A DNA stretch of 64,000 bases from Pseudomonas fragi (lineage in GTDB: Bacteria > Pseudomonadota > Gammaproteobacteria > Pseudomonadales > Pseudomonadaceae), in assembly GCF_002269505.1 (NCBI RefSeq), contig NZ_NQKQ01000001.1, positions 248,001-312,000 on the forward strand, in the 5' to 3' direction. The stretch's first letter is position 1. Each line of letters opens with the position of its first letter. Positions 11,590 to 57,346 of this stretch are shown piece after piece. Both the position numbers and the translations under genes were made by a program. Below the pieces are notes generated by a model. It saw only the letters and a program-made list of their open reading frames with translations, was not told where the DNA came from and did no database searches.

Positions 11590-11607
11590 GCCTGCGATTT
11601 GAAGACC

Positions 11608-11641
11608 CCCTCACCCCAACACACTCCCGGAGGGAGAGGGG
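11608..11641. repeat. Solo copy of the CCCTCACCC...GGGAGAGGGG intergenic repeat
   Basis: A CCCTCACCCCAACACACTCCC arm followed by GGAGGGAGAGGGG, forming a short hairpin around CTCCCGGAGGGAG. It is the single-arm form of the paired element at 41725-41829 and shares most of its sequence. Here it lies harmlessly between the aceF terminator and the next gene. Confidence 0.7.
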
Positions 11642-39759: not shown

Positions 39760-41284
39760 GCCAGTAACCTTCGGCCAAACCCCGTTGCGCATTGAAGACG
39801 TGCTGGCCCTGGCCAATCGTCAGGCGCCAACCCGGCTGCAGGACGACCCCGACTATCGCGAGCGCATCGCCAAGGGCGCACGTTTTCTCGATTCGCTGCT
39901 GGACAAGGAAGGCGTGATCTACGGCGTAACCACCGGCTATGGCGACTCCTGCGTGGTGGCTGTGCCGCTGGAACACGTCGAAGCCTTGCCGCGCCACCTC
40001 TACACCTTCCACGGTTGCGGACTGGGCAAGTTGCTCGACGCCCAGGCCACCCGCGCTGTGCTGGCGGCACGCTTGCAGTCGCTGTGCCACGGCGTGTCGG
40101 GGGTGCGCATTGAGTTGCTGGAGCGGTTGCAGGCCTTTATTGCCCACGACATCCTGCCCCTGATCCCCGAAGAAGGCTCGGTGGGCGCCAGTGGCGACCT
40201 GACGCCACTGTCTTACGTGGCCGCCACCCTGTCGGGCGAGCGCGAAGTGCTGTTCAAGAGCGAGCGCCGCCTTGCCGCAGATGTGCACCGGGAACTGGGC
40301 TGGGCACCGCTGGTACTGCGGCCCAAGGAAGCGCTGGCACTGATGAACGGCACCGCCGTAATGACCGGCCTGGCGTGCCTGGCCTATGCCCGCGCCGACT
40401 ACCTGCTCAAACTGGCCACGCGCATCACCGCCCTCAACGTGGTGGCGCTGCAAGGCAACCCCGAGCACTTTGACGAGCGCCTGTTCGCCGCCAAGCCGCA
40501 CCCGGGGCAAATGCAGATTGCGGCGTGGATCCGCCAGGACCTCGCCATCGACGCCCCGACCGCGCCGCTGCACCGTCTGCAAGACCGTTACTCGCTGCGT
40601 TGTGCGCCCCATGTGCTGGGCGTGCTGGCAGACAGCCTGAACTGGCTGCGCGGCTTTATCGAGATCGAACTCAATAGCGCCAACGACAACCCGATCATCG
40701 ACGCTGAAGAGGAGCGTGTGCTGCACGGCGGGCACTTCTATGGTGGTCATATCGCCTTTGCGATGGACAGCCTCAAGACCCTGGTCGCCAACGTTGCCGA
40801 CCTGCTGGACCGCCAGCTCGCCCTGTTGGTGGACGTGCGCTACAACCACGGCCTGCCGAGCAACCTGTCGGGTGCCAGTGCAGAACGGGCCATACTCAAC
40901 CACGGCTTTAAGGCGGTGCAAATCGGTACCAGCGCCTGGACCGCCGAAGCGTTGAAAAACACCATGCCGGCCAGCGTGTTCTCCCGCTCCACCGAGTGCC
41001 ACAACCAGGACAAAGTCAGCATGGGCACCATCGCTGCTCGCGATGCGATCCGTGTGCTGGAACTGACCGAGCAAGTCGCCGCAGCCACTTTGCTGGCTGC
41101 CAACCAGGGCGTATGGCTGCGCAGCCGTGCCGAAGACGCCCGCCCGCTGCCGCCGGCACTGGCGCACATGCATGCCGAACTGGCCAAGGACTTCCCCCCG
41201 GTGGTTGAAGACCGCGCCCTGGAAGCCGAACTGCGCTTGTGCTTGAGCCGTATTGCCCAACAACACTGGAGGCTGCATGCGTAG
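39740..41284 (+). CDS. Aromatic amino acid ammonia-lyase (MIO family; tyrosine or histidine)
   Basis: 514 residues. The MIO prosthetic group forms from Ala-Ser-Gly 150-152 in EEGSVGASGDLTPLSY. The catalytic Tyr 61 lies in GVIYGVTTGYG, and ELNSANDNPIID is conserved. The substrate-selectivity pair is Phe 90-His 91 (LYTFHGCG), where histidine lyases have Ser-His and tyrosine lyases carry His. In this setting a tyrosine ammonia-lyase making 4-coumarate as an aryl precursor is more sensible than histidine breakdown: no other hut gene is present. It starts inside the acyltransferase 3' end and is followed by a thioesterase. Confidence 0.85.
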   Translation: MTTHPHEPVTFGQTPLRIEDVLALANRQAPTRLQDDPDYRERIAKGARFLDSLLDKEGVIYGVTTGYGDSCVVAVPLEHVEALPRHLYTFHGCGLGKLLDAQATRAVLAARLQSLCHGVSGVRIELLERLQAFIAHDILPLIPEEGSVGASGDLTPLSYVAATLSGEREVLFKSERRLAADVHRELGWAPLVLRPKEALALMNGTAVMTGLACLAYARADYLLKLATRITALNVVALQGNPEHFDERLFAAKPHPGQMQIAAWIRQDLAIDAPTAPLHRLQDRYSLRCAPHVLGVLADSLNWLRGFIEIELNSANDNPIIDAEEERVLHGGHFYGGHIAFAMDSLKTLVANVADLLDRQLALLVDVRYNHGLPSNLSGASAERAILNHGFKAVQIGTSAWTAEALKNTMPASVFSRSTECHNQDKVSMGTIAARDAIRVLELTEQVAAATLLAANQGVWLRSRAEDARPLPPALAHMHAELAKDFPPVVEDRALEAELRLCLSRIAQQHWRLHA

Positions 41285-41702
41285 CAAAGGGGTTTTGCAC
41301 GTTGATACCGAAGTGTTGGTGCCGTTTTTCGACATCGACACGATGCAGGTGGTGTGGCACGGCCACTACGTCAAATACCTTGAAGTGGCCCGCTGCGCGC
41401 TGCTCGACCATATCGGCCACAACTACACCCACATGCTCGATGCCGGCTATGCGTGGCCGGTGATCGACATGCAGTTGCGCTATGTCCGCGGGGCCACGTT
41501 TGGCCAGCGGATCAACGTGCGCGCCAGCCTGGTGGAGTGGGAAAACCGCTTGAAGGTCAATTACCTGATTACCGACCTGGCTACCGGCGAACGGTTGACC
41601 CGGGCCGTGACCGTGCAAGTGGCCGTCGAGATTGCCAGCAAGGAGATGCAACTAGTCTCGCCCAGGTGCTTTACCGAGGCGGTGGCGAGGGTGCTGGCAT
41701 GA
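41277..41702 (+). CDS. 4-hydroxybenzoyl-CoA-type thioesterase
   Basis: 141 residues, hotdog fold. FFDIDTMQVVWHGHYVKYLE places Asp 21 at the position of the catalytic acid of 4HBT thioesterases. GGAGG lies 4 bases before the ATG, and the gene overlaps the lyase stop. It probably releases stalled or finished acyl chains from ACP or CoA. It ends ATGA into the LolA-like gene. Confidence 0.88.
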   Translation: MRSKGVLHVDTEVLVPFFDIDTMQVVWHGHYVKYLEVARCALLDHIGHNYTHMLDAGYAWPVIDMQLRYVRGATFGQRINVRASLVEWENRLKVNYLITDLATGERLTRAVTVQVAVEIASKEMQLVSPRCFTEAVARVLA

Positions 41703-42433
41703 CACTCTTTTTCAGATCAAAAGCCCCTCACCCTAGCCCTCTCCCGGAGGGAGAGGGGACTGACCGAGGCGATCTCAAGCACAACACCAATCAGCACCCT
41801 CTCCCTTTGGGAGAGGGTTGGGGTGAGGGCAAAGGCCGCACGCGCATTTGCATTCTGTTCGCTGCATTGTTTGCCTTTTCACCCCTGGCCCACGCCTTCG
41901 ACCTGCAACAACTCAGCGAGCAGTTGGCCAAACCCCAGGTAATCCACGGTGACTTCATCCAGGAAAAACACCTGCGTGCCCTGCCCAAGCCGCTGACCAG
42001 TACCGGTACCTTTGTGCTTGCCAAGAACCACGGCCTGCTCTGGCAACTCAAGACCCCGTTACAGCAGGACTACCGCATCAACGCCCAGGGCATCGCCCGC
42101 CGTGACGGCACCCGTTGGCAAATGCTCCCCGGCAAAAGCGCCGGTGCCGAGCAGAACCGTTTGTTTCTCGCCGTGCTGCAAGGCGACAGCAGTGGCCTGC
42201 AACGGGACTTCGATCTGCAACTGCAAGGCACACCCGATCACTGGACGTTGACGCTGACCCCACGCTCCCTGCTGCTCAAGCAAGTGTTCAACCAGATCAA
42301 TATTGAAGGCGGCGAGTTGGTGCAACGCATCGAGCTGCAAGAAGCCCAGGGCGACAGCACGCAGCTGTTGATGCAAAACAGCGTCAGCAATCAACCCTTG
42401 AACGAAGCGGAGCAGCACGATTTTGCGCAGTGA
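41699..42433 (+). CDS. LolA-like periplasmic carrier with repeat-derived N-terminal extension
   Basis: 244 residues from the ATG overlapping the thioesterase stop. Residues about 10-43 are encoded by the inverted repeat at 41725-41829 and read PHPSPLPEGEG...HPLPLGEGWGEGK. After this comes a normal signal peptide (about 45-66, RTRICILFAALFAFSPLAHA) and a LolA-type domain (HGDFIQEKHLRALPKPLTST onward). The original start region thus seems split from the signal peptide. A TTG at 41807 inside the repeat could start a shorter precursor with a conventional signal peptide. The product should carry a lipidic intermediate or lipoprotein across the periplasm. Confidence 0.82.
   Translation: MTLFFRSKAPHPSPLPEGEGTDRGDLKHNTNQHPLPLGEGWGEGKGRTRICILFAALFAFSPLAHAFDLQQLSEQLAKPQVIHGDFIQEKHLRALPKPLTSTGTFVLAKNHGLLWQLKTPLQQDYRINAQGIARRDGTRWQMLPGKSAGAEQNRLFLAVLQGDSSGLQRDFDLQLQGTPDHWTLTLTPRSLLLKQVFNQINIEGGELVQRIELQEAQGDSTQLLMQNSVSNQPLNEAEQHDFAQ
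41725..41829. repeat. 105-bp inverted repeat lying inside a coding region
   Basis: The left arm CCCTCACCCTAGCCCTCTCCC (21 bases) and the right arm 41809-41829 are complementary with two mismatches. Each arm ends in its own hairpin, CCCTCTCCC-GGA-GGGAGAGGG and CCCTCTCCC-TTT-GGGAGAGGG. It is the paired form of the solo repeat at 11608-11641. It is open in the frame of the LolA-like gene. Confidence 0.88.
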
Positions 42434-45895: not shown

Positions 45896-47130
45896 AAATG
45901 GAACGTCGCCAGGTCGTGGTGATCGGTGCAGGGCCGTCCGGCGCCATCGCCTCGGCCTTGCTCAAACGCAAGGGCCACGATGTGTTGATCATCGAGCGCC
46001 AGCACTTCCCGCGTTTTTCGATTGGCGAAAGCCTGCTCTCGCATTGCATCGACTTCATCGAAGAAGCGGGCATGCTGGACGCGGTACAAGCCGCCGGCTT
46101 CCAGTTGAAAAACGGCGCGGCTTTCGCCTGGGGCGAGCAATACAGCGCCTTCGATTTTGGTGAAACGTTCAGCAACGGTAAACCCACGACCTTTCAGGTC
46201 CAACGTGCTGATTTCGACAAGCTACTGGCCGATCAGGCGGCGTTGCAGGGCGTCGAGATCCGTTACGGCGAAACCGTAATTGCCACGGATGTAGAGCGGG
46301 CCAAACCACTGCTGGAAGTTGAGCGCGAAGACGGCAGCCGCTATCAGCTTGAAGCCGAGTTCATTCTCGACGCCAGCGGTTATGGGCGCGTCCTGCCGCG
46401 TTTGCTCGACCTGGAAGCACCGTCGAACTTTCCGCTGCGCCAGGCGGTGTTTACCCACGTTGAAGACCGCATTGATTGCGAGCGCTTTGATCGCAACAAA
46501 ATCCTTGTCACCACCCACCCGACCCGGCGCGACATCTGGTTCTGGAGCATCCCGTTCAGCAATGGCCGCACATCGGTGGGCGTGGTGGCGGCGGCAGACC
46601 ATTTCGCAGGTCGCAGCGAAAACCTCGACCAGTGCCTGCGTAGCTTTATCGATGAAACCCCCAGCCTGCAACGCGTGCTGGCCAACGCTGTATGGGACAC
46701 CCCGGCCCGCACCCTGGGCGGCTACTCGGCCAACGTCAAAACCCTGCATGGCCCCGGCTTTGCACTGTTGGGCAACGCCGCCGAGTTCCTCGATCCGGTG
46801 TTCTCCTCGGGCGTAACCATCGCCATGCGTTCAGCGAGCATGGCGGCGGGCGTGTTGCACCGCCAATTGCAAGGCGAAACGGTGAACTGGCAAAGCGAGT
46901 TTGCCGAACCGCTCAAGCGCGGGGTCGACACCTTCCGCTGCTACGTCGAAGGCTGGTACGCCGGTACCTTCCAGGACGTGATCTTCCACCCCGGCAGCCA
47001 GCCACATATTCGCAGCATGATCTGCTCTATCCTGGCGGGCTATGCCTGGGATGAAAACAACCCCTTTGTCAGCGAATCCAGGCGCCGTTTGCGCATGCTG
47101 TCGGATGTCTGTGCCACGGAGCCCGCATGA
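45883..47130 (+). CDS. FAD-dependent monooxygenase/halogenase-like enzyme
   Basis: 415 residues from GTG 45883 (AAGGAG upstream). FAD site VVVIGAGPSGAIASALL at the N-terminus. FPRFSIGESLL is shared with phenol- and pyrrole-type flavin halogenases. WFWSIP (219-224) matches the WxWxIP halogenase signature. Lys 76 (GFQLKNGAAFAWG) is placed like the catalytic lysine of those enzymes. Similar genes in pigment clusters are often called tryptophan halogenase or FAD oxidoreductase. It may halogenate or hydroxylate the aryl head group (xanthomonadins are brominated); which of these is unproven. No flavin reductase is encoded nearby. Confidence 0.8.
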   Translation: MSGIEMERRQVVVIGAGPSGAIASALLKRKGHDVLIIERQHFPRFSIGESLLSHCIDFIEEAGMLDAVQAAGFQLKNGAAFAWGEQYSAFDFGETFSNGKPTTFQVQRADFDKLLADQAALQGVEIRYGETVIATDVERAKPLLEVEREDGSRYQLEAEFILDASGYGRVLPRLLDLEAPSNFPLRQAVFTHVEDRIDCERFDRNKILVTTHPTRRDIWFWSIPFSNGRTSVGVVAAADHFAGRSENLDQCLRSFIDETPSLQRVLANAVWDTPARTLGGYSANVKTLHGPGFALLGNAAEFLDPVFSSGVTIAMRSASMAAGVLHRQLQGETVNWQSEFAEPLKRGVDTFRCYVEGWYAGTFQDVIFHPGSQPHIRSMICSILAGYAWDENNPFVSESRRRLRMLSDVCATEPA

Positions 47131-47882
47131 AACCTCTGAGCGATACCTACGTTGAAGAAACCCGCATCGGGTTCTGGTTCTTGCGCAGCCACACCTGGCA
47201 GCACCATGTGCTGCGGGTGGCCATCAATGACCTGCGCAGCCTGTTCAGTGAAGCGCTGCCAGCCGCACCGGTGATCCTCGATGCCGGCTGTGGCCAGGGC
47301 AAATCGTTCCAGTACCTGTACAAAACCTTCGCCCCGCAGCGCCTGATTGGCCTGGATGCCGACCCCCTGAGCCTGCAATTGAGCGGCCAGGAGGCTCAGC
47401 GCCAGGGCTTTGATGTGGAGCTGATCGGCAGCGATTGCGCCGAACTTGATGTGCCGGATGCCAGCGTCGACATCCTGTTCTGCCACCAGACTTTCCACCA
47501 CCTGGTACAACAGGACCGGGCGCTGGCCGAGTTTTACCGGGTGCTCAAGCCCGGTGGTTACTTGCTGTTTGCCGAGTCTACCGAAGCCTATATCGATACC
47601 TGGGTGATCCGCTGGTTGTTCCGCCACCCTATGCACGTGCAGAAAAGCGCGGCGCAATACCTGGAAATGATCCGCGACCAGGGCTTTGAATTCGAGTCGA
47701 AAAACGTCTCGTATCCCTACCTGTGGTGGAGCCGCTCCAAGGACTTCGGCCTGCTGGAGCGGGTTGGCCTGTTCAAGCCAAAACCGGTCGGCCAACGCGA
47801 AGAAACCCTGGTCAACGTCGTGGCACGCAAGCCCCTGACTCCTGTGGGAGCGGGTTTGCCCGCGATAGGATCGCTGCGGTGA
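47127..47882 (+). CDS. Class I SAM-dependent methyltransferase with REP-derived tail
   Basis: 251 residues. SAM motif I is ILDAGCGQGKS (50-60); GLDADPLSLQL and DILFCHQTFHHL follow as motifs II and III, and then VLKPGGYLLFAE. It probably O-methylates the aryl hydroxyl or C-methylates the ring. The last ~13 residues (TPVGAGLPAIGSLR region) are read from the left arm of the REP pair at 47843, so the native C-terminus has been replaced or extended. ATGA overlap upstream. Confidence 0.87.
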   Translation: MKPLSDTYVEETRIGFWFLRSHTWQHHVLRVAINDLRSLFSEALPAAPVILDAGCGQGKSFQYLYKTFAPQRLIGLDADPLSLQLSGQEAQRQGFDVELIGSDCAELDVPDASVDILFCHQTFHHLVQQDRALAEFYRVLKPGGYLLFAESTEAYIDTWVIRWLFRHPMHVQKSAAQYLEMIRDQGFEFESKNVSYPYLWWSRSKDFGLLERVGLFKPKPVGQREETLVNVVARKPLTPVGAGLPAIGSLR

Positions 47883-47929
47883 ATCATTCGAACCGAGTTG
47901 CCTGTATCGCGAGCAAGCCCGCTTCCACA
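47843..47929. repeat. REP pair (REPIN) at the methyltransferase-lipoprotein junction
   Basis: TGTGGGAGCGGGTTTGCCCGCGAT (left) and its inverted partner ending GCTTCCACA. The left arm is translated as the methyltransferase tail; the right arm lies directly before the lipoprotein start. It is the only REP pair inside the otherwise tightly packed pigment operon. Confidence 0.88.
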
Positions 47930-47935
47930 CGGATA

Positions 47936-48406
47936 ATGTTTGTGTGGCTATTGATGTGCATGCTGCTCAGTAGCTGCACCAGCTTGCCGCTGCCCAGGAA
48001 AATGCCAACCCTGGCCTTGCCGATGCAATTGCATATCCAGCGCGAACAGGCCGATCAGCGTCAGGACTGGTTGCTGGTGATCCAGCAACAAGACACCGCG
48101 TTGCGCTGGTCCCTGATGGACCCGCTGGGCATTCCGCTGGCGCGCCAGTTGCTTCAGGACGGCACCTGGCATGCCGACGGTCTGTTACCGCCCAACCCCG
48201 AAGCCCGCGAGCTATTCGCCGCGCTATTGTTTGCACTCACACCGGCAACTGAGCTGGCGGATAATTATCCACAGGCCAAAACGGCGCCTGACATGCGGTT
48301 CATGGAACAGCGCTGGCAAGTGCACTACCCGCAACCCGAGGTATTTCGCATCGATATGAAGGGCGATCTGCATTACACCGTCAGCCCTCTGGCAAGCACG
48401 CCATGA
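47936..48406 (+). CDS. Lipoprotein of the polyene cluster (DUF3261-like)
   Basis: 156 residues from ATG 47936. FVWLLMCMLLSSC ends in a lipobox with the lipidated Cys at 14, then a soluble domain resembling the DUF3261 lipoproteins found in APE clusters (LPMQLHIQREQADQRQDW and following). The short signal lacks a basic n-region. A GTG at 47879, overlapping the methyltransferase stop as GTGA, would add 19 REP-encoded residues with two Arg and a Lys and give a more normal signal. The protein is likely anchored in the outer membrane and may receive the pigment from the LolA-like carrier. Confidence 0.75.
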   Translation: MFVWLLMCMLLSSCTSLPLPRKMPTLALPMQLHIQREQADQRQDWLLVIQQQDTALRWSLMDPLGIPLARQLLQDGTWHADGLLPPNPEARELFAALLFALTPATELADNYPQAKTAPDMRFMEQRWQVHYPQPEVFRIDMKGDLHYTVSPLASTP

Positions 48407-57168: not shown

Positions 57169-57226
57169 ATCTATCGGGTCGATTTGTAGCGGTTTAACGC
57201 CTTATTTGGCAACACCGCGAAACAAC

Positions 57227-57316
57227 TGTGGGAGCGAGCTTGCTCGCGATAAGGGCTTCACATTCAGCATCTGCACTGAATGATCTGTCGATATCGCGAG
57301 CAAGCTCGCTCCCACA
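57227..57316. repeat. REP pair (REPIN) between gltD and hemE
   Basis: TGTGGGAGCGAGCTTGCTCGCGAT (left) and its almost exact inverted copy ending GCTCCCACA at 57316. The spacer contains a small ATTCAG...CTGAAT hairpin. It is the most canonical of the three REP pairs here. Confidence 0.93.
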
Positions 57317-57346
57317 TTTTGATCTCATTCCCATTCGGGAAAGTGA

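Follow-up and report, generated by a model that had tools for sequence, protein, structure and literature searches.

REPs are named for their extragenic location, and one locus in the window (the whole 64-kb stretch of Pseudomonas fragi DNA that was analysed) raises the question of how a doublet of such palindromes can lie inside an open reading frame, close downstream of the codon at which a predicted exported protein starts. Our reading, to which we give a probability of about 85%, is that a REP doublet at a coupled gene junction is translated as an extension of about 35 residues in the signal-peptide n-region, which would be tolerated because it should be cleaved off, and that such insertion has recurred across Pseudomonas.

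A REP doublet between a coupled start codon and a predicted signal peptide

The LolA-like precursor gene (41699-42433, plus strand) follows a 4HBT thioesterase gene (41277-41702, plus strand; Pfam 4HBT_2, 1.2e-10). Its ATG (41699-41701) shares bases with the thioesterase stop codon TGA (41700-41702) in an ATGA overlap, and the reading frame from this ATG is open for 244 codons. Matches to Pfam LolA_3 (5.3e-11) and LolA (7.8e-10), both above cut-off, begin at residues 64 and 80 of the precursor. Upstream of them, positions 41725-41829 encode about 35 residues (PHPSPLPEGEG...PLPLGEGWGEG), followed by a hydrophobic predicted signal sequence, the remaining signal peptide KGRTRICILFAALFAFSPLAHA (41830-41896, plus strand), which ends in AHA and, judging from sequence and hydrophobicity, would be cut before FDL. 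The mature LolA-like part (41897-42433, plus strand) is conserved according to relatives and Pfam, and that of P. bubulae, the first named relative listed, is 92% identical to it, a degree of identity that puts the genome close to the so-called fragi group. A LolA domain placed after a signal peptide predicted by hydrophobicity is what would be expected of a LolA-like exported protein. The sequence thus bears out the original prediction of an insert of about 35 residues between coupled ATG and signal peptide, encoded by a 105-bp repeat whose length is divisible by 3 and whose frame is open. The description of an intergenic repeat turned into coding sequence was right in essence, except that stop and start codons overlap and so leave no intergenic space at the junction.

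Elsewhere in the operon, Pfam matches comprise an aromatic ammonia lyase (Lyase_aromatic) and proteins of the lipid A acyltransferase and tryptophan-halogenase/FAD types; further matches are a methyltransferase, AMP-binding plus ApeI-like dehydratase, a ketosynthase (ketoacyl-synt), Glycos_transf_2, Acyltransferase and PP-binding, and matches to MMPL and DUF3261 fall below cut-off. Those to 4HBT, LolA, Lyase_aromatic, ApeI-like, ketoacyl-synt, Glycos_transf_2, Acyltransferase and PP-binding exceed it. This putative aryl polyene operon resembles, in its gene set, an aryl polyene cluster, which contains ketosynthases, ACPs, an ApeI-type dehydratase, an ammonia lyase, a thioesterase, LolA, an exporter and DUF3261.

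The insert (41725-41829, plus strand) is classed as a REPIN-like REP doublet lying in frame in the n-region, on the basis of sequence, pattern counts, fold and relatives. It contains two inverted REP palindromes, neither assigned to a strand, with a short spacer between them: CCCTCTCCC-GGA-GGGAGAGGG at 41737-41757 (pattern match G000:C1:289737-289757) and CCCTCTCCC-TTT-GGGAGAGGG at 41797-41817, the loop of which holds the TTG at 41807. Copies are dispersed as in REPINs, since the 5.05-Mb genome has 168 instances of the pattern CCCTCTCCC-N2-8-GGGAGAGGG (control pattern, 0), and 13 doublets of two such type-A REPs, that at LolA included, lie in 440 kb of it. Unlike REPINs, which are expected to be extragenic, 41725-41829 lies within an open frame that is kept in relatives. 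With its flanks the insert folds at -80.8 kcal/mol, compared with -46.2 (s.d. 3.8) for shuffled sequences (z -9.1). The two palindromes and the strong fold fit the two-hairpin repeat that had been described, but the best fold of this segment is a single long hairpin in which the REPs pair with each other.

One Pfam model (Y1_Tnp), applied to the 80-contig assembly, revealed no transposase (RAYT) tied to the type-A REP. Its sole match in the genome (G000:C7:98827-99147) is flanked by GTAG-type REPs (GTAGTCGCTGCCGAAGGC) and not by CCCTCTCCC, so we term the type-A element REPIN-like rather than a proven REPIN. The GTAG family of that locus is also the one found at the LolA site of P. fragi D12. 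Rfam matches (12 at E ≤ 1) were all below the gathering score and were taken as chance, the best, to a eukaryotic microRNA family, reaching 29.9 bits against a gathering score of 74. The window also holds a further REP doublet of the GGGAGCGAGCTTGCTCGCGA type (57224-57319) and a single CCCTCACCCC-type REP (11602-11641) directly past a terminator-like hairpin. In another genome, a regular array of REP doublets, one per about 127 bases, is found at G129:C1:143599-144561.

Different repeats occupy the LolA site across Pseudomonas

A genus-wide LolA search gave matches in 176 of 199 genomes, some of the weak ones possibly being repeat peptide or distant LolA. The comparison set comprised 209 loci (30 + 100 + 79), that of P. 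fragi included. The first two groups, 130 loci, were taken from the genus search, with the weaker of the listed matches left out, and 79 came from a search of relatives in which 80 of 141 matches were kept (one locus, L150, had no thioesterase match). These loci reduced to 194 non-redundant junctions, of which 106 carry a repeat-derived extension and 88 do not, as in the junction reading MKRLSVWLLLCCLAPLAQA directly followed by FDL. With 88 junctions unextended and 168 instances of the repeat pattern across the genome, the alternative that all relatives carry the extension, with the repeat absent elsewhere, fails.

The 106 repeat-bearing loci fall into 13 classes of repeat, phase and orientation, according to our own labels. 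Type A accounts for 8 loci; the GGGAGC..GCTTGC type occurs in three phases (53, 7 and 3 loci) and once in reversed order; the TAGCAGCTGGCGAAGCC type is present in both orientations (13 and 3 loci) and the GTAGTCGCTGCCG type in 5 loci. The smaller classes are D (6), K (3), E (2), F (1) and M (1), F and M being single loci without tracing to other copies. The labels were partly given by eye (L003, L138 and L139 as decayed type A; L026, L077 and L144 as inverted C; L064 as decayed B), and the 13 classes indicate only approximately how many separate insertions there were; the numbers are of loci and not of independent events. Among the nearest relatives alone, three repeat families occupy the same LolA site: type A in P. 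bubulae, P. saxonica and P. helleri FSL R10-2339, the GTAG type in P. fragi D12, P. psychrophila HA-4 and P. helleri DSM 29165, and the GGGAGC type in P. psychrophila DSM 17535 and P. paraversuta. Two loci (L146 and L151) match twelve relatives in length and flanking sequence and have a different spacer, which would reflect either replacement in place or a second insertion. Event numbers from a gene tree of about 560 nt were discarded, because tree error inflates both the 51 Fitch changes of label (shuffled mean 94.5) and the 27 of presence and absence.

Two loci are unusual in architecture. In Pseudomonas sp. dw_612 (L178, positions 607-1200), the repeat-coded n-region and hydrophobic core are tandemly triplicated in frame, the 198-bp units giving a 198-residue stretch ahead of mature LolA. 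In L017 (G176), one of the 88 junctions without a repeat-derived extension, the end of the thioesterase gene and the signal sequence are locally duplicated in tandem, and the second copy provides the in-frame start.

The repeat is likely translated from the coupled start codon

The distance from coupled start to mature part is at least 100 nt in 107 loci, 106 of which are in frame, the remaining one being L017 without a repeat. In these 106 loci the stretch spans 36-198 residues (median 56) and a coupled in-frame start is kept throughout (97 ATG and 2 GTG at -1, 7 ATG at -4). Frame 0 is open in all 106, and the other sense frames in 33 and 17. The extensions have 35 distinct lengths, every one a multiple of 3, and no two of the eight type-A loci agree in length. 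Shuffling of substitutions within equal-length groups of at least four inserts (41 sequences, 639 substitutions) yielded a mean of 10.1 stop codons and a minimum of 1 in 500 shuffles, against 0 observed. Elsewhere in 440 kb of the P. fragi genome, the other 41 doublets are open in 116 of 246 frames (47%) and type-A doublets in 18 of 72 (25%), and the core-to-core lengths of all 42 doublets modulo 3 number 19, 16 and 7.

Translation could instead begin at the TTG at 41807, as the original prediction had allowed, or at some other codon inside the repeat or beyond it, which would make the repeat an untranslated leader. The TTG is in frame, 84 of the 106 loci have some later in-frame ATG, GTG or TTG, and REPs at the 5' end of ORFs in P. 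putida, C. koseri and S. maltophilia are mostly regarded as possibly non-coding in the part of PMC3733652 that treats them. Against this, 22 of the 106 lack any such codon in the interval that begins at the third codon and stops 16 codons short of the mature part, and these include relatives that share the P. fragi repeat (P. saxonica L002/L134, P. helleri FSL R10-2339 L137 and P. bubulae L131). Moreover, the TTG lies at the loop of a strong hairpin and no Shine-Dalgarno-like stretch precedes it on reading the sequence, and the frame is kept in 106 of 106 loci. We therefore consider a start within or after the repeat improbable. The open frames, the lengths in threes and the 22 loci without an alternative codon indicate that the coupled ATG is likely the start and that the repeat is likely coding. 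The other possibility raised at the outset, a precursor that tolerates a long extension, gains support from the frame and its openness in all 106 loci.

The frame is kept while the inserted peptide is weakly constrained

In six equal-length groups of at least four loci, pN/pS of the insert was 0.87, 0.52, 1.21, 0.80, 1.52 and 0.73, the groups above 1 being mixtures of different inserts. The corresponding values were 0.15, 0.36, 0.63, 0.30, 0.70 and 0.49 for the last 20 signal-peptide codons and 0.06, 0.09, 0.13, 0.07, 0.16 and 0.08 for the first 50 mature codons. Codon bootstraps of the insert values, made for three of the six groups, gave 0.62-1.20, 0.35-0.85 and 0.43-1.54; because the second interval excludes 1, weak constraint on the insert is possible. 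These data indicate that the inserted peptide is weakly constrained. In the three bootstrapped groups the insert diverges less than the synonymous sites of neighbouring sequence, so it is not simply neutral DNA.

An insertion that inactivates the gene, its open frame being due to chance, is very improbable. Decay can occur, as a LolA-like match in G184 has two in-frame TGA codons and the lipoprotein matches in G192 and G120 (the second exported gene, below) have one stop each, and single frames of doublets elsewhere are often open. But 106 open frames out of 106 far exceed that background of 47%, or 25% for type A, and the mature part is strongly conserved in the insert-bearing groups (pN/pS 0.06-0.16). 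The G184 match (G184:C7:106091-106711) may be a decayed copy.

The insertions might also be adaptive, the hairpin or the long n-region tuning translation, export or the expression of the operon further downstream, with repeats gained or kept on that account. In line with this, 106 of the 194 junctions carry a repeat, L146 and L151 hold a different element between the same flanks, and repeats were detected at few operon junctions only (see below). In addition, hairpin-paired columns vary less than unpaired ones in the same three groups (0.136 vs 0.303, 0.140 vs 0.231 and 0.090 vs 0.212), with 12, 11 and 1 cells changed on both hairpin sides. However, homogenisation among REP copies would also predict conserved arms; low divergence of paired columns and of the insert is expected if the copies are homogenised or young, or if structure matters. 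The weak constraint on the peptide, the 88 junctions that lack a repeat, and three loci (L003, L006 and L126) in which the hairpin is largely lost yet the frame is intact also speak against adaptation, which we regard as unlikely.

A second exported gene and a contrasting glycosyltransferase gene

A second REP doublet, of another REP family (47844-47929, no strand assigned), lies at the junction between the methyltransferase gene (47127-47882, plus strand; Pfam Methyltransf_11, 6.1e-24) and a DUF3261-like lipoprotein gene (47879-48406, plus strand; Pfam DUF3261, E 0.00048, 20.4 bits, below the cut-off of 22.3). This doublet supplies both the methyltransferase stop codon (47880-47882) and an overlapping GTG at 47879 (GTGA, 47879-47882) in the lipoprotein frame. 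A start at this GTG would give a repeat-coded n-region, VNHSNRVACIASKPASTRI, ahead of the lipobox signal; the ATG at 47936 is an alternative start.

Of 110 lipoprotein loci, further matches being left out, 93 were used (P. fragi included), 9 were not evaluable and 8 were duplicates. The junction is short in 59 of the 93, all with a coupled start, and long in 34. Among the long junctions, 33 have an open in-frame start at -10 to +2 of the upstream stop codon (open frames, 33 vs 12 and 8), and a recognisable REP core was found in 32, L257 and L335 having none. The exception is L289 (G034), a REP-bearing junction of 172 nt with a closed frame and GTGs only at +130 and +133. For L290 the upstream stop is doubtful because the methyltransferase match is partial. 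The DUF3261-like lipoprotein gene resembles LolA in this respect, with repeats kept in frame behind a coupled start.

A scan of 21 operon loci (the window and 20 genomes) with seven repeat seeds detected repeats at the thioesterase/LolA junction in 14, at dehydratase/glycosyltransferase in 12, at methyltransferase/lipoprotein in 8 and past the last gene in 6, and one weak single core inside an acyltransferase gene; these are undercounts, as the LolA repeats of L235 and L249 and the lipoprotein repeats of L234 and L247 escape the scan. With these seeds no repeat was detected at any other junction of the 21 loci, nor before genes judged membrane-looking from their sequence, such as the MMPL-like exporter. 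In contrast to the two exported genes, the glycosyltransferase (Pfam Glycos_transf_2, 5.7e-14), presumably cytosolic, has its repeats ahead of its conserved ATG, in the gap that follows the stop codon of the preceding gene, and the frame across the repeat is closed in 7 of 12 loci and open in 5.

Proposed origin and maintenance of the extension

From these comparisons we infer translation, export, cleavage, mobility and the cause of recurrence as follows. A REPIN-like, non-autonomous mobile repeat would have entered the junction, at which stop and start codons overlap, immediately after the LolA-like start codon, and translation from the coupled ATG would give a signal-peptide n-region longer by about 35 residues. 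Sec and lipoprotein n-regions probably tolerate such length and composition, and signal peptidase would remove the encoded peptide along with the cleaved signal peptide. Because the extension should leave in this way, the mature protein would be unchanged, and selection would keep frame and openness and hardly the peptide sequence. In an operon poor in spacers, the n-region may be among the few sites where a repeat breaks neither coupling nor protein. Across Pseudomonas, repeats of different families have come to occupy this one LolA site, and insertion has likewise taken place at the second exported gene, that of the lipoprotein.

A broader version, to which we give even odds, is that n-regions in overlapping operons form a protected niche in which signal peptidase erases the insert, so that unrelated repeat families may colonise it, replace one another in place and even rebuild the stop-start coupling out of repeat sequence, as at GTGA 47879-47882. 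Of 59 elements surveyed in 440 kb of the P. fragi genome, 18 fall, by our own criteria, within an ORF and are followed by coding-like sequence, and of these, those at LolA and the lipoprotein alone precede a signal peptide at an operon junction (judged by eye). The other 57 gave no further clear case in the 440 kb, the ORF ones appearing antisense or preceding the gene's own start. A survey of type-B elements covered 90 loci (the first 30 places listed in each of three genomes), which represent 59 distinct elements and partly overlap the same 440 kb. No clear case was found among these 59, the three formal matches being one gene with its own ATG after the repeat and two antisense-looking instances. 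As these limited surveys gave no further clear case, a rule for n-regions in general is unproven.

The large set of relatives permits a frame test, in which REPs are kept in frame in two predicted signal peptides, while a further gene of the operon provides a contrast. The result suggests a rule, simple and open to test, on the places inside genes where small mobile repeats can reside, offers export studies a natural series of signal peptides from about 20 to about 90 residues in length, and calls for caution in start-site annotation.

Comparison with known systems

Among the top literature matches listed (open-licence papers), there was no report of REPs in signal peptides. In inteins and introns, an insertion is hidden since its product is removed by self-splicing. 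The insert described here would likewise be hidden by removal, but by the host signal peptidase, as predicted, and with no self-splicing.

Like the Pseudomonas REPINs and REPs treated by Bertels and Rainey (2011; PMC3116915), the P. fragi element is an inverted doublet with a spacer, high copy number and a hairpin. Their paper describes REPINs as mainly extragenic, since the top 16-mers in SBW25 occur 1,067 times and overlap genes in only 14 instances, whereas the P. fragi repeat is apparently translated, and recurrently so at one spot. Intragenic GTAG/CGTC REPs have been catalogued, some at the NH2 end of ORFs (PMC3733652, section on such REPs), and the present element is likewise a REP within an ORF at that end. 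Most N-terminal REPs of P. putida and two other species are thought there to be perhaps non-coding, while the frame statistics reported here argue for coding, and the n-regions are hit by several families. Rickettsia palindromic elements, as portrayed in PMC10969869 and PMC3733652, are in-frame insertions with a conserved peptide in unrelated genes. Palindromic repeats in frame within genes are common to both systems, but the peptide here depends on the repeat and its phase, and it is predicted to be lost when the signal peptide is cleaved off.
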